Shown here one piece after another: positions 1 through 10,005 of a stretch of DNA of 63,217 nt. Below the pieces are notes generated by a model. The model did no database searches. It worked only from the letters and a program-made list of their open reading frames with translations, and was not told the origin of the DNA. Numbering within the stretch: position 1 is the first letter of the stretch; each line of letters starts with the position of its first letter. The position numbers and the translations under genes were made by a program. Source of the DNA: a virus; IMG/VR virus record IMGVR_UViG_3300008339_006649, positions 1 to 63,217 of that record; one strand, given 5' to 3'.

Positions 1-349
1 TTAGGTACTAAGTCAATATAATCCTTTTTTAAAACCCAATCACCACCCGCCTGTAAACCTACAATTTTAGAATATGCATAAGTGTATTGGGTCTCCCAAT
101 CCATACTACGTGTTGATAGTGCTCTTGTTATAGATTGTTCATCAAGATTTAAACCGTAAACCGAGGTCCATTGAGATTCGATTAACCAATCTTGAACATG
201 TTGTTCATAATCCTCTATAGAAAGTTCCAATAAAGAATCCATCATTTCATCATCCAACTCAACTCCACGTAACGGTGCACCTAAAAGATTACGTATTCTT
301 TTATAAAGTTTACTTCTTTCTGGTTCGTTAATGATTACAATAGACATAA
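1..349 (-). CDS. Hypothetical virion-type protein, C-terminus cut off by the window edge
   Basis: The reading frame begins with ATG at 349 and runs leftward off the window without a stop, giving about 116 residues that start MSIVIINEPERSKLYKRI. The visible part is acidic and helical (for example ELDDEMMDSLLELSIEDYEQ), followed by a Trp/Tyr-rich stretch. A short helical N-terminus with a DDEMMDSLLE-type helix recalls small head-tail connector or neck proteins. That function is only inferred from pattern and from the tail genes that follow at 3.9 kb. A TATTTATA box sits 11 bases upstream of the start on the same strand, as for the other late genes here. The start is well supported and the function is uncertain. 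Confidence 0.75.
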
Positions 350-394: not shown

Positions 395-1477
395 TTACTT
401 TTTTTCTAATAGTGAATTAAAAGAGTCATTAACAAATTCCCAATTAACCACTTTCCAAAAATTTTTAATATACTCGTCTCTTTTGTTTTTATACTTTAAA
501 TAATATGCGTGTTCCCATAGGTCTAAACCTAATAGTGGATATCCATTTTCTTTTTCCGTATTCATTAATGGATTATCTTGATTTGATGTTGTTGTGATTT
601 TTAACTTATTATTTTTTGTTAATATTAACCAAACCCATCCAGAACCAAATTTTGTTTTACCCTCTTCCTCAAATTTTTCTTTAAATTTTTCAAAAGAACC
701 AAAATCTTTTTCTATTTTAGATAATATAGGGTCTTTTATTTGTTGTTTTTTTGGGGATAGCATTTTCCAAAACAAAGCGTGATTAAAGGCACCACCACCA
801 TTGTTTTTAACAATTTTATTAAATTTAGAAACTTTTTTAATGATTTCTTCCAATTCTAAATCAGGACCTTTAATTTTTTCTAACTCAACATTTAATTTTT
901 CAACATAAGTTTTGTAATGTTTAGTGTAGTGAGTTTTCATAGTTTCACTATCAATAAAAACACCCACAGAGTCATAATTATAAGGTAATTTTTCTATACT
1001 TATTTTTTTTATTTCGGTTATAATGTTTTGTTTTGATACTGATTCTATTTTTAATTTATTTTCTATTTCTTCAATTTTTTCTTTAAATGGGGAATATAAT
1101 TTTTTTTCAATAGATTTATTATCCTTTTCAAATTTTTTAATATCTGCACCGGCTTTAGCGTTAGCTTCATCTTCATTTTTACCGCCAATGTCCTTACCTT
1201 TTTTTCTTTTTAGTACGGTTCTTTGATATTCATGAATCCACTCATGTGATAATGTTTTTAAAATATCTCGATTAATCCGGTCTTTAACTAAAATTTTTAA
1301 TAAACTACCACTTGTTCTTGAACCAGTGGTCATTTTACCGGTTCTATTTTTTTGAAAACTAATGGTAACGTCGTTTTCTAACGGATGTTCCTTTTTTAAA
1401 AAGTTTATGAATTCTTTAATTAAAGATTCCCCACCTTTTGTCGGAGTACACCCAATATATTTAATCTTAACTTCCAT
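395..1477 (-). CDS. Fusion protein: HExxH metallopeptidase-like domain plus Mn/Fe superoxide dismutase
   Basis: This 360-residue protein joins two domains that are not normally linked. Residues about 1-120 hold SHEWIHEYQ, an HExxH zinc site (H78, E79, H82), followed by an acidic NEDEANAKAGAD segment that could supply the third zinc ligand, as in gluzincin-like peptidases. After a charged, probably coiled-coil linker (about 115-163), residues 165-355 match iron/manganese superoxide dismutase throughout. The four metal ligands are visible: H183, H233 (FNHALFW), D319 and H323 in the signature DLWEHAYY. Gateway and second-sphere residues H187, Y191 and Q300 (SNQDNPLM) are also present; the Gln position is the one typical of Mn enzymes. 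SOD converts superoxide to oxygen and peroxide. No signal peptide is seen. A TATTTATA box 4 bases before the ATG suggests late expression. The SOD assignment is firm; peptidase activity is inferred from the motif only. Confidence 0.9.
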   Translation of the reverse strand: MEVKIKYIGCTPTKGGESLIKEFINFLKKEHPLENDVTISFQKNRTGKMTTGSRTSGSLLKILVKDRINRDILKTLSHEWIHEYQRTVLKRKKGKDIGGKNEDEANAKAGADIKKFEKDNKSIEKKLYSPFKEKIEEIENKLKIESVSKQNIITEIKKISIEKLPYNYDSVGVFIDSETMKTHYTKHYKTYVEKLNVELEKIKGPDLELEEIIKKVSKFNKIVKNNGGGAFNHALFWKMLSPKKQQIKDPILSKIEKDFGSFEKFKEKFEEEGKTKFGSGWVWLILTKNNKLKITTTSNQDNPLMNTEKENGYPLLGLDLWEHAYYLKYKNKRDEYIKNFWKVVNWEFVNDSFNSLLEKK

Positions 1478-1481
1478 GATA

Positions 1482-1489
1482 TATAAATA
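1482..1489 (-). promoter_or_regulatory. TATTTATA box upstream of the metallopeptidase-SOD gene
   Basis: This exact TATTTATA on the minus strand is separated from the ATG at 1477 by only 4 bases and abuts the stop codon of the SNF2 gene. It is placed so as to start the SOD-fusion gene independently of SNF2. Confidence 0.55.
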
Positions 1490-3253
1490 TCAACGTCCGT
1501 TAGAAATCATTTTTAACATTTCTTCTATTGCAGATGCGTCATCCATCATATCATCACCCATAACGGTTGATATGATTTTTTTCTTTCTGTTTAAGATGTC
1601 GTAGATGGCACCTTCAATTGTATTTTCAAATAAAGGGTAATAAACTGATGTGGAATTTTTCTGACCAATTCTATGTGAACGGTCTTCGGCTTGTGCGTGT
1701 TCAGCGGGTACAAATGATAAGTCATTCATTATTACCGCTTCGGCAGCAGTTAAAGTCAAACCAACACCCGCGGCTTTCAAGTTACCAACAAATACTTTAA
1801 TCTTATCGTTAGTCTGAAATTCATCAACAGCATTTTGACGATGAGGTTTTGAACAACTCCCATCTAAATAAACTGCCGACTTACCAAAATGTTGGTAGAT
1901 TTGTTGGAGGGTGTCGGTGAAGTTTGTGAATATGATTACTTTTTTACCTTGCTCAATAATATTTTCAGCCAACTCAATCGTGTTATTAATTTTTTCCTGA
2001 GCAATCACTTTTCTAACCTTCATTAATTTACCAAATTGAATTGTTAATGAATTGGATTCTTCGGGATTTTGGTCGTACCAATCATAGTATTCACCCATCA
2101 ATTCTTCATAATCTTTAGATTTTAACCTTAAATAAACGGGTGTGATAATTTTTTCGGGTAAATCTAAAACCTCTTCTTTTAATCTACGTAAAATGTGTGT
2201 TTGAGTTCTTTCTCTTAATTCGTCAAGATTAGTTGCTCCTTGAACATTCCAAACTTTTCTTTTACCAACATTAAACTGAAAACCATTACAATACCTTTTA
2301 GCGTACGCCATCCAATTCATAGCCACAGGACTATCAACAATGTTCAATAAATTATAATAATTCATAGGTCGTGATGTCATAGGTGTTCCTGATAACAACC
2401 AAACTCTTTCTATTCTTGATATGATGTCATTTACGATTTTAGTTCTTTGCGCTTGTGGATTTGAAATCATATGTGCCTCATCCATAATGACTAAATCAAA
2501 TTTTGTCTTTAGAATTGTTGAGTCGTCTTTTTTCTTAATCTCGTGGAAATTTTTTAAGATGTCATAGTTGATGATTACAAAATCATGTTGATCTGAAAAT
2601 TTTTTACCTTCTGCAATATATACGGTTCTGTCTGAATAATTTTCAATTTCACGTTGCCAATTAATTTTTAATGATGCGGGACATATAATTAAAATCTTTT
2701 TTGCGCCTGTTTCTAAAGCGGAGATAATTGTTGATGTGGTTTTACCAAGACCCATATCATCGGCCAAAATAAACTTTTTATTTCTAACCAACTTTTCAAT
2801 TGCCTCAATTTGGTGAGTCATTGGCATTCTGTGTTTATACTTACTATAATCTATAACAACATTTTTCACTTCGTTATCTTTAACGAGTGCTGATTTTGGC
2901 ATCCAAAAATCATAAGTTGTGTCACCTGAAAATATTTTACCCCAAATGTGATACGATTTATCTTTTTCGACCAAAAGCTTTTCAACGTATATTTCAGTCG
3001 GTTCCTTGGTATACATTTTATCCTCCATTAATTTTTTACCAAAGTATGAATCCAGTTTAACCCATTTTTTTGCAACTTTTGGTTGTACGTTATGATAATT
3101 AATAATGTATTCAGATTGGGGTCTTGTGGGAACAAAAGACTTACTATTTTGTTTTTTGTGTTTTAAATTAAGGATGTAATTATTAGACCCTTCATAATTA
3201 TCTAAAATTAAAAGGGCCTTGGACTCTGGCGTTTTTGATATTGCATCTTCCAT
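1490..3253 (-). CDS. SNF2-family DNA helicase/translocase
   Basis: This is a superfamily 2 ATPase of the SNF2 (SMARCAL1/HARP-like) type, about 587 residues. Walker A is DDMGLGKT (about residues 165-172 from the chosen start). Other SF2 motifs are the DEAH box in VIMDEAH (258-261), motif III LLSGTPM, and the C-terminal helicase domain with VGNLKAAGVGL and motif VI DRSHRIGQ. Such enzymes translocate on double-stranded DNA and remodel forks or displace proteins; in T4-like phages UvsW fills a comparable branch-migration role, though that equivalence is inference. The ATG at 3253 (MEDAISKTPES) was preferred over one 10 codons upstream because the longer version adds a hydrophobic MFCFIIIHIL stretch lying in A/T-rich leader DNA. 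The gene is read leftward, divergent from the gene at 3329, and is followed by the SOD fusion. Confidence 0.92.
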   Translation of the reverse strand: MEDAISKTPESKALLILDNYEGSNNYILNLKHKKQNSKSFVPTRPQSEYIINYHNVQPKVAKKWVKLDSYFGKKLMEDKMYTKEPTEIYVEKLLVEKDKSYHIWGKIFSGDTTYDFWMPKSALVKDNEVKNVVIDYSKYKHRMPMTHQIEAIEKLVRNKKFILADDMGLGKTTSTIISALETGAKKILIICPASLKINWQREIENYSDRTVYIAEGKKFSDQHDFVIINYDILKNFHEIKKKDDSTILKTKFDLVIMDEAHMISNPQAQRTKIVNDIISRIERVWLLSGTPMTSRPMNYYNLLNIVDSPVAMNWMAYAKRYCNGFQFNVGKRKVWNVQGATNLDELRERTQTHILRRLKEEVLDLPEKIITPVYLRLKSKDYEELMGEYYDWYDQNPEESNSLTIQFGKLMKVRKVIAQEKINNTIELAENIIEQGKKVIIFTNFTDTLQQIYQHFGKSAVYLDGSCSKPHRQNAVDEFQTNDKIKVFVGNLKAAGVGLTLTAAEAVIMNDLSFVPAEHAQAEDRSHRIGQKNSTSVYYPLFENTIEGAIYDILNRKKKIISTVMGDDMMDDASAIEEMLKMISNGR

Positions 3254-3328: not shown

Positions 3329-3811
3329 ATGAAAAAAATAATAAAACTTACAGAATCTGATTTAGCAAGAATTGTTATAAATGTTATAAATGAAAATAAC
3401 AATGAAAAAAAAAGAAGTCATATACTTTTATATAACTGTCTGATGACTAAAACTAATTGGTATAATAAATCAAATATCAGAAGCGTTGAAAATAAAAATT
3501 GGTCAATTATCGAAGGTAGTTTAGAATCGGGCGATAAAGTAGTTTATGCAAGAGAATTTGTTAACGAAAAATTAAAAAATCGAGAAATAAATTATGGTTC
3601 ACAACGTTTAAGATGTGAGCGTAAAAACAGTAAAATTAATTGTCAACTTTTAACGTTTATGGATGGAGACAAACAGAGTATTTGGCTACTGAACAAAACT
3701 TATGTTGGAGATAAAAAATTTATTTGGTACAGTGAAGGTGTTACAACAACATGTGATGAACTTCAAAAAATTGTAAATGATGAAGCAAATAAAGCACATA
3801 TTAATGACTAA
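3329..3811 (+). CDS. Hypothetical protein with an LTESDLARIV N-terminal tag
   Basis: This 160-residue protein is not recognised as a known family. It opens with MKKIIKLTESDLARIVINV, a basic amphipathic helix ending in an I-N-E tripeptide (residues about 20-22). The remainder (about 28-160) is basic, with Tyr/Trp-rich beta-like segments and four cysteines. The N-terminal helix resembles a short targeting tag, and I-N-E fits the (I/L)-x-E cleavage pattern of T4-type prohead proteases. That reading is inference. The gene stands alone between a TATTTATA box and a strong terminator hairpin, so it is a monocistronic unit. Confidence 0.8.
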   Translation: MKKIIKLTESDLARIVINVINENNNEKKRSHILLYNCLMTKTNWYNKSNIRSVENKNWSIIEGSLESGDKVVYAREFVNEKLKNREINYGSQRLRCERKNSKINCQLLTFMDGDKQSIWLLNKTYVGDKKFIWYSEGVTTTCDELQKIVNDEANKAHIND

Positions 3812-8992: not shown

Positions 8993-9130
8993 ATGAAAAT
9001 AGAGAAAAAATTAATAAAAGAATCTTTAGGGTACTCCCAAAAAGGTAAAAAAACGTTTTCTGATAAAAAACAAAACATAATCATTACTGAGTCTCAGTTA
9101 GAAAAATTATTGGAAAAACTTCAAAAGTAA
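8993..9130 (+). CDS. Small basic protein (45 aa) with ITESQLEKLL motif
   Basis: This short gene encodes 45 residues beginning MKIEKKLIKESLGYSQKGKK and ending in ITESQLEKLLEKLQK. It is lysine-rich and probably helical. The ITESQLEKLLEKL end resembles the LTESDLARIV tag at the start of the 3329 protein. It has a TATTTATA box 14 bases upstream, and its stop overlaps the ATG of the HAD gene (TAATG), which suggests translational coupling. The family is not recognised. The box, the overlap and the matched motif support a real gene. Confidence 0.6.
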   Translation: MKIEKKLIKESLGYSQKGKKTFSDKKQNIIITESQLEKLLEKLQK

Positions 9131-10005
9131 TGAATGTTAAAAGACACGTTTTAAATTATCTAAAAAATAGAAAACTGAATGAAGGGTTTACTGAAGAAGG
9201 AAGACCCGACACCAAATATTATGCTTTTGATTGGGACGATAACATTATGTTTATGCCGACCACAATAATATTATTATCAGAAAATGATGAAGAGGTACAC
9301 ATGTCTACTGAAGATTTTGCAGACCATAGACATGAAATAGGTAAATCTCCATTTAACTATAAGGGGACTGTTGTTATAGGGTATGCAAATAATCCATTTA
9401 GAAATTTTAGAACAGAAGGGGATAAAAGATTTGTTATAGATACAATGTTAGCCAAACCAGGACCATCTTGGAATGACTTTGTTGAATGTGTTAATGGGGG
9501 TTCAATTTTTGCTATTATAACTGCAAGGGGTCATAATCCTAAAGCGTTAAGAGAAGCGGTTTTTAATCTTATTATGAGTAACCATATGGGTATTAATAGT
9601 AATGTATTGGCGGAAAACCTTAGAAAATATCGTAACCTATATGATAATATTAACGATGATAACAAAAAGATTAAATCATTAACCAAACAAGACTTAAACG
9701 ACTATTTAGATTTGTGTAGGTTTGAACCCGTTACTTTTGGTGAAGGAGATGCTGCGAATCCTGAAGAAGGTAAAATTAAAGCAATGAGGTCTTTTATTAA
9801 TTATTGTAAAGAGATGGCTTCGGAGATAGGTCAGAAAGCTTTCTTTAAGAACGATGTTTCAAATAATGAAATTGAACCAATTATAGGGTTTTCTGACGAT
9901 GACCCAAGAAATATAGAAATGATGAAAGGGTTTTTAGAAAAAGAATATGAAAAAAATCCAGTAAGAACTTATTTAACAAAAGGAGGAAATAAAAAAGAAT
10001 TTTAA
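9130..10005 (+). CDS. HAD-superfamily phosphatase-like protein
   Basis: This 291-residue protein carries the HAD hydrolase motifs in order. Motif I is FDWDDN (nucleophile candidates D34 and D36), motif II is AIITARGHN (T132), and motif IV is GFSDDDPRN (D257-D259). The region between motifs II and IV is long (about 120 residues) and may be a cap that contains the motif III lysine. HAD enzymes hydrolyse phosphate esters through an aspartyl-phosphate; the substrate here is unknown, with nucleotides or DNA 3'/5' phosphates being plausible. The N-terminus MNVKRHVLNYLKNRKLNEG is a basic helix with an L-N-E site like those of other tagged proteins here. It is coupled to the preceding 45-residue gene and lies between the sheath and tube genes. 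Confidence 0.8.
   Translation: MNVKRHVLNYLKNRKLNEGFTEEGRPDTKYYAFDWDDNIMFMPTTIILLSENDEEVHMSTEDFADHRHEIGKSPFNYKGTVVIGYANNPFRNFRTEGDKRFVIDTMLAKPGPSWNDFVECVNGGSIFAIITARGHNPKALREAVFNLIMSNHMGINSNVLAENLRKYRNLYDNINDDNKKIKSLTKQDLNDYLDLCRFEPVTFGEGDAANPEEGKIKAMRSFINYCKEMASEIGQKAFFKNDVSNNEIEPIIGFSDDDPRNIEMMKGFLEKEYEKNPVRTYLTKGGNKKEF

Follow-up and report, generated by a model that had tools for sequence, protein, structure and literature searches.

A zincin-superoxide dismutase fusion in uncultured freshwater T4-like phages as a probable precursor of head cargo

In phage T4 the prohead protease gp21 cleaves after L/I-X-E (PMC9026906), and a targeting sequence (CTS) is all that the internal proteins of the T4 head share (PMC3012670); IPI-III and Alt have leaders ending in L/I-x-E, with diverse cargo behind similar leaders. 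The propeptides of T4 and of the giant phages are cut at several sites (PMC5694885), and the ejection proteins of the giant phages phiKZ and SPN3US have long propeptides that are cut after a short x-x-E, which in phiKZ is S/A-x-E, by a gp21 homologue; we found no SOD or zincin described among these proteins. Superoxide dismutases (SODs) have been reported from freshwater phages and are described as a defence of the host against ROS (PMC6802176); the auxiliary genes listed in a Microcystis-virus study include an Fe/Mn SOD (PMC12542629), and some UniProt entries from uncultured Caudovirales bear the name 'superoxide dismutase'. The initial annotation of the DNA analysed here had called phage SODs rare and a peptidase-SOD fusion undescribed. 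The first statement is to be qualified in view of these reports; the second still holds for the open literature (most subscription papers lie outside this scope), where we found no report of a zincin-SOD fusion, of a polyprotein or cleavage-site architecture of this kind, or of a packaged phage SOD.

The window, by which we mean the whole stretch of 63,217 nucleotides (positions 1 to 63,217 of IMG/VR virus record IMGVR_UViG_3300008339_006649), encodes on its minus strand, at 395-1477, a complete fusion of a zincin, a putative propeptide linker and an Mn/Fe SOD. That a single 360-residue frame holds both an HExxH domain and a complete Mn/Fe SOD, as first annotated, is borne out by the uninterrupted open reading frame with its ATG start, by Pfam and PDB matches and by an alignment of 57 diverse fusions.

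Residues 156-360 (398-1012, minus strand) make up the Mn/Fe superoxide dismutase domain, which is unmistakable by sequence over residues 160-350. Within the 360-residue protein Sod_Fe_N (3e-21) and Sod_Fe_C (8e-42) exceed their Pfam cut-offs (76.1 bits for a cut-off of 27, and 141.9 bits for one of 20.9), and the best PDB match of the protein is a SOD (2e-58). The four metal ligands, three His and one Asp, are all present together with the second-sphere Gln and the gateway His/Tyr, and the full set that had been annotated is invariant among the 57 fusions: H183 (929-931), H233 (779-781), D319 (521-523) and H323 (509-511), all on the minus strand, as well as H187, Y191 and Q300, to which W321 can be added. 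UniProt A0A6J5L953, one of the SODs of uncultured freshwater phages, shows 62% identity where the two proteins align; the accessible part of the paper on such SODs mentions no fusion, cleavage site or packaging (PMC6802176). The closest cellular SODs are mostly enzymes of Bacteroidota, which share the ligands at 45-55% identity, and several of which have an apparent secretion signal where the phage proteins have a leader ending in [I/L]xE. Phylogenetic analysis groups the phage SODs in a single clade apart from the Bacteroidota enzymes (support 100/99), with one bacterial row inside it; this SOD, from the bin of a Fluviicola MAG (L335), sits on a very long branch (0.96) and its position may reflect a misplacement, a transfer or a binning error.

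The N-terminal domain (residues 1-131; 1085-1477, minus strand) is assigned as a zincin-like metallopeptidase by motif and modelled fold only. The HExxH motif H78-E79-W-I-H82 (1232-1246, minus strand) is present as annotated and H78, E79 and H82 are invariant in the alignment. An acidic third zinc ligand had been placed at residues 102-104; E102 (1172-1174, minus strand), in the segment GGKNEDEANA, is likewise invariant and is the better candidate, whereas E104 is only nearly so. The AF2 model of the domain has a pLDDT of 94.9 and a pTM of 0.90, and a Foldseek search of the PDB with it returned mostly zincins at the top (thermolysin-like, astacin-like and YbeY), with weak E values of about 0.02. 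There was no significant Pfam match, the SprT-like family scoring 12.9-15 bits (E 0.02-0.1) against a gathering score of 25.6; among the matches in BFVD are phage proteins that carry an IrrE or SprT-like label. The domain has HExxH and a predicted zincin fold in common with SprT-like and IrrE-type phage proteins, and differs from them in a conserved GGxxEDEAN block that holds E102; no close solved structure was found. We found no relatives of the zincin in bacterial genomes, and within the phage collection only Synechococcus phage S-SRM01 has one (38%). Other phages encode it as a stand-alone protein of 129-140 amino acids that ends at the domain border (L254, L283-L308), at loci that differ from the SOD locus; in several of these its gene lies next to an FKBP-like one and to one whose product has the leader ILITEEEK...NINE.

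A scan of IMG/VR with the domain pair, a search that the initial annotation had proposed, found relatives encoded on at least 582 stretches, and the best 80 of these at least 582 matches span the whole fusion, or nearly so, at 56-100% identity. Full-length relatives occur on more than 80 viral contigs. Since full-length fusions, identical or 53-76% identical, recur on many independent contigs, a chance frame or an assembly chimera is ruled out, and in the relatives checked there was no stop, frameshift or loss of a ligand. One fusion (L277:3001-) has lost the region of the first SOD helix in frame (FLTEIKKLNDAL...) and is either a degenerate copy or an assembly artefact. No cultured phage in INPHARED has the fusion. 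Fourteen SOD matches there were considered as relatives and rejected, as they cover the SOD domain only, at less than 60% identity, and look bacterial; these bacterial-looking matches lie in 'phage' records OR850395, OR845917, OR846594, MW462191 and others, and MW462191, the one record opened, also encodes tet(X4) and a class C beta-lactamase.

Between the two domains lies a flexible linker (residues 132-155; 1013-1084, minus strand). Residues 138-161 have an AF2 pLDDT below 50, and the model of the full-length fusion has a pTM of 0.52, too low for the arrangement of the domains to be read from it. Among relatives the linker is variable except for one tripeptide, which in the window is I153-T154-E155 (1013-1021, minus strand) and which we predict to be a site for the prohead protease, cleaved immediately past E155 (bases 1013/1012). 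We counted this motif in 110 fusions, 47 zincin-less phage SODs and 65 bacterial SODs. It can be seen that [I/L]xE, with its Glu exactly 9 residues before the LPY of the SOD, occurs in 109 of the 110 fusions and in all 47 zincin-less phage SODs, and at the corresponding position in none of the 65 bacterial enzymes; linker composition would give it at 4.3% per site. P1 is Glu throughout, P3 is Ile or Leu apart from a single Val, and P2 is free. At 20 and 26 residues the linker has further [I/L]xE sites, in 62 and 73 of the 110 fusions respectively, which recalls the multiply cut propeptides of T4 and the giant phages (PMC5694885). The K and I that follow the junction site are conserved as well, and the block could therefore be conserved for some other reason.

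One such reason would be that the SOD is also made from an internal start, at the MKKIGIEKLPY that most relatives have after the predicted cut, so that what selection keeps at the junction is a start region and not a protease site. P1' is indeed Met in about 70% of fusions. However, the window and its clade have Ile there (IKKISIEKLPY) and no Met, and the conservation at P3 and P1 is at the level of amino acids and upstream of the supposed start codon, which makes this explanation highly improbable. Under the cleavage reading, the predicted piece after the cut would correspond to a normal SOD N-terminus, mostly beginning at a Met.

Further information on the junction comes from phage SODs that have no zincin (54 unique sequences, among them L311-L313 or near relatives of those). 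These begin with an N-terminal leader of about 30 residues, matched by the linker of the fusion and likewise ending in [I/L]xE, as in MKKIEKKINLITEELKKVETHENQQMFINE/MKKIGIEKLPY (the slash marking the predicted cut) or, in L472, LLTE/AKKIGIEKLPY. In the tree the zincin has been gained or lost at least twice, and zincin-less L311 is nested among fusions of the window type. Because the zincin-less SODs keep the leader, and given this tree, we consider that the linker is the SOD's own leader, in front of which the zincin was added or from which it was lost. The leader is a putative propeptide and a candidate capsid-targeting sequence. As in CTS-bearing cargo, it ends in L/I-x-E at the predicted mature N-terminus; in the fusion it is internal, and we found no such leader at the N-terminus of the zincin itself.

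It could be argued that the zincin is itself a long removable propeptide, which takes the SOD into the prohead and is then discarded, leaving the SOD as the sole cargo. Head proteins of giant phages do have propeptides of more than 100 residues with CTS-like roles (PMC5694885). Against this, a mere carrier would have no need of an invariant HExxH and E102, the zincin is found alone at other loci of other phages, and the 30-residue leader by itself suffices in the zincin-less SODs; we therefore regard a discarded zincin as improbable, although less so than an internal start.

The surroundings of the gene are constant. At SOD loci a helicase gene lies upstream on the same strand in 240 of 240 cases, and a neck protein gene lies downstream in 228 of 240, so that the order helicase - fusion - neck protein is fixed. 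In the window the upstream neighbour, which is not a head gene, encodes an SNF2-type DNA helicase (1490-3253, minus strand; PHROG 62, 7e-114), and the downstream neighbour, cut by the window end, encodes a head-tail adaptor or neck protein (3-347, minus strand; PHROG 211, 0.008). On the sense strand of the fusion gene, 4 nt before its ATG, is the box TATTTATA (1482-1489, minus strand), which read on the opposite strand is the T4 late box TATAAATA. This box, already called late-type in the initial annotation, stood up to a count: of its 24 occurrences in the window, 11 are in sense and no more than 60 nt before a start, against 0.63 expected and a maximum of 4 in 5000 random placements. The starts that it precedes include those of the tail sheath gene, other structural genes, the neck gene and the fusion gene, and by analogy late expression of the fusion is likely. 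The same box is strongly enriched upstream of many plus-strand genes of the window.

The box also bears on the classic reading of the gene as an auxiliary one, namely that it encodes a stable bifunctional enzyme of the infected cell, which shields the host against superoxide while it is infected or inside grazers, and to which the zincin was joined for co-expression. The invariant SOD ligands and the single frame, stop-free in the relatives examined, fit this reading, as does the host ROS defence proposed for freshwater phage SODs (PMC6802176). A late-type box does not, and neither does a flexible, low-confidence linker with an invariant protease-type motif at the exact domain border, nor the retention of the leader in SODs that have no zincin. 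We consider a stable two-domain enzyme unlikely, if the least unlikely of the alternatives. The annotation as a peptidase-SOD fusion thus stands for the domains and their ligands, which are intact; the junction [I/L]xE and the zincin-less SODs indicate that the product is probably a precursor rather than a lasting two-domain enzyme.

If the fusion is a precursor cut in the prohead, the lineage should have the machinery of T4-like head maturation. The 63-kb window has no head module, gp21-type protease and gp23 included, and the protease and gp23 are therefore known only from relatives; of eight records searched, four long relatives encode a protease of the gp21 type together with a capsid protein of the gp23 type, the combination found in the T4 system of internal head proteins. 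Capsid precursors of three long relatives have LINE/AAST or LINE/ATSE near residue 60, close to the length of the T4 gp23 propeptide (65 residues; PMC5694885), and the corresponding MCP site of Flavobacterium phage immuto is IVSE/ANV. P1' at the SOD junction, Met or Ile, is unlike the Ala-type residue of the MCP site. Among the named capsid proteins of the phage collection, those of Flavobacterium phage immuto, Microcystis phage Mel-JY01 and Rhodothermus phage RM378 are some of the nearest; on this evidence and that of the closest cellular SODs, which are mostly from Bacteroidota, a host in that phylum is likely.

Taking these observations together, we think it probable that the fusion is a head-cargo precursor of a T4-like myovirus, which is cut by the prohead protease, packaged and ejected with the DNA. 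The precursor would be made late, alongside the structural proteins, and taken into the prohead core, probably by means of the amphipathic leader before the SOD. The gp21-type protease would then cut after I-T-E155 and so separate the zincin from a native-like SOD that begins IKKISIEKLPY. The two proteins would be ejected alongside the DNA; the SOD would remove superoxide during entry and early infection, and the zincin would cleave some target. We infer the cleavage, packaging and ejection, and the SOD and peptidase activities, from the genes of the window and its relatives. The initial suggestion that the protein acts during virion production or is packaged gains support from the late-type box and the junction motif, packaging itself being the inferred part. 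Compared with T4 IPI-III and Alt, whose leaders likewise end in L/I-x-E, the putative cargo here is a SOD and a zincin, sometimes with a third module, and there are several candidate sites per chain.

Many relatives run on past the SOD into a third module, of which there are at least four unrelated kinds. [L/I]xE occurs within the first 40 residues past the SOD in 38 of 40 proteins with a third module and in 1 of 30 that end there, a contrast that is partly built in because the tails of proteins that stop short are brief. In L063, L076, L064 and L312 the modules behind the SOD are exchangeable and unrelated, each following an [L/I]xE, and one type of module is also found alone or behind other partners. 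None matched Pfam or PHROG, and some are suspected, by eye, to resemble PD-(D/E)xK nucleases. A wider proposal, which we judge to be evenly poised, is that a freshwater T4-like lineage packages a multi-enzyme polyprotein, which the prohead protease cuts at [I/L]xE sites into a SOD, a metallopeptidase and exchangeable modules that are injected along with the DNA. If so, we know of no earlier case of an antioxidant enzyme carried in a phage virion, and the cargo system would be modular and evolvable. An antioxidant pre-made in the virion would guard the first minutes of infection, instead of acting through later expression, and SOD genes now called auxiliary metabolic would be recast as ejected effectors. 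A leader with [I/L]xE at module borders would then be a sequence rule by which head cargo could be recognised across thousands of genomes of uncultured phages, and the function of many unknown proteins would become directly testable.

We also looked for such motifs beyond the SOD family. Across 72 ortholog groups, N-terminal columns have a conserved [LIV]xE 1.5 times as often as internal ones do (p = 0.03); since this proteome-wide enrichment is weak, the case is carried by the SOD family and the MCP. The leader MKKIIRLTESDLxRIVxRVIxE is common to 25 otherwise different proteins in the loci fetched, including one encoded in the window at 3329-3811, much as the T4 internal proteins have only a targeting sequence in common (PMC3012670), and is a candidate capsid-targeting sequence of the lineage. 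The window protein (plus strand) begins MKKIIKLTESDLARIVINVINE, a leader of this LTESDL kind, and in G003 the genes for two proteins with such leaders lie between those for the homologues of gp21 and gp22. A further window protein (9130-10005, plus strand), which has no Pfam match and is HAD-like by eye, has a variable leader that ends in (L/V)xE in four orthologues (MNVKRHVLNYLKNRKLNE/GF...) and is followed by a conserved YYAFDWDDN.
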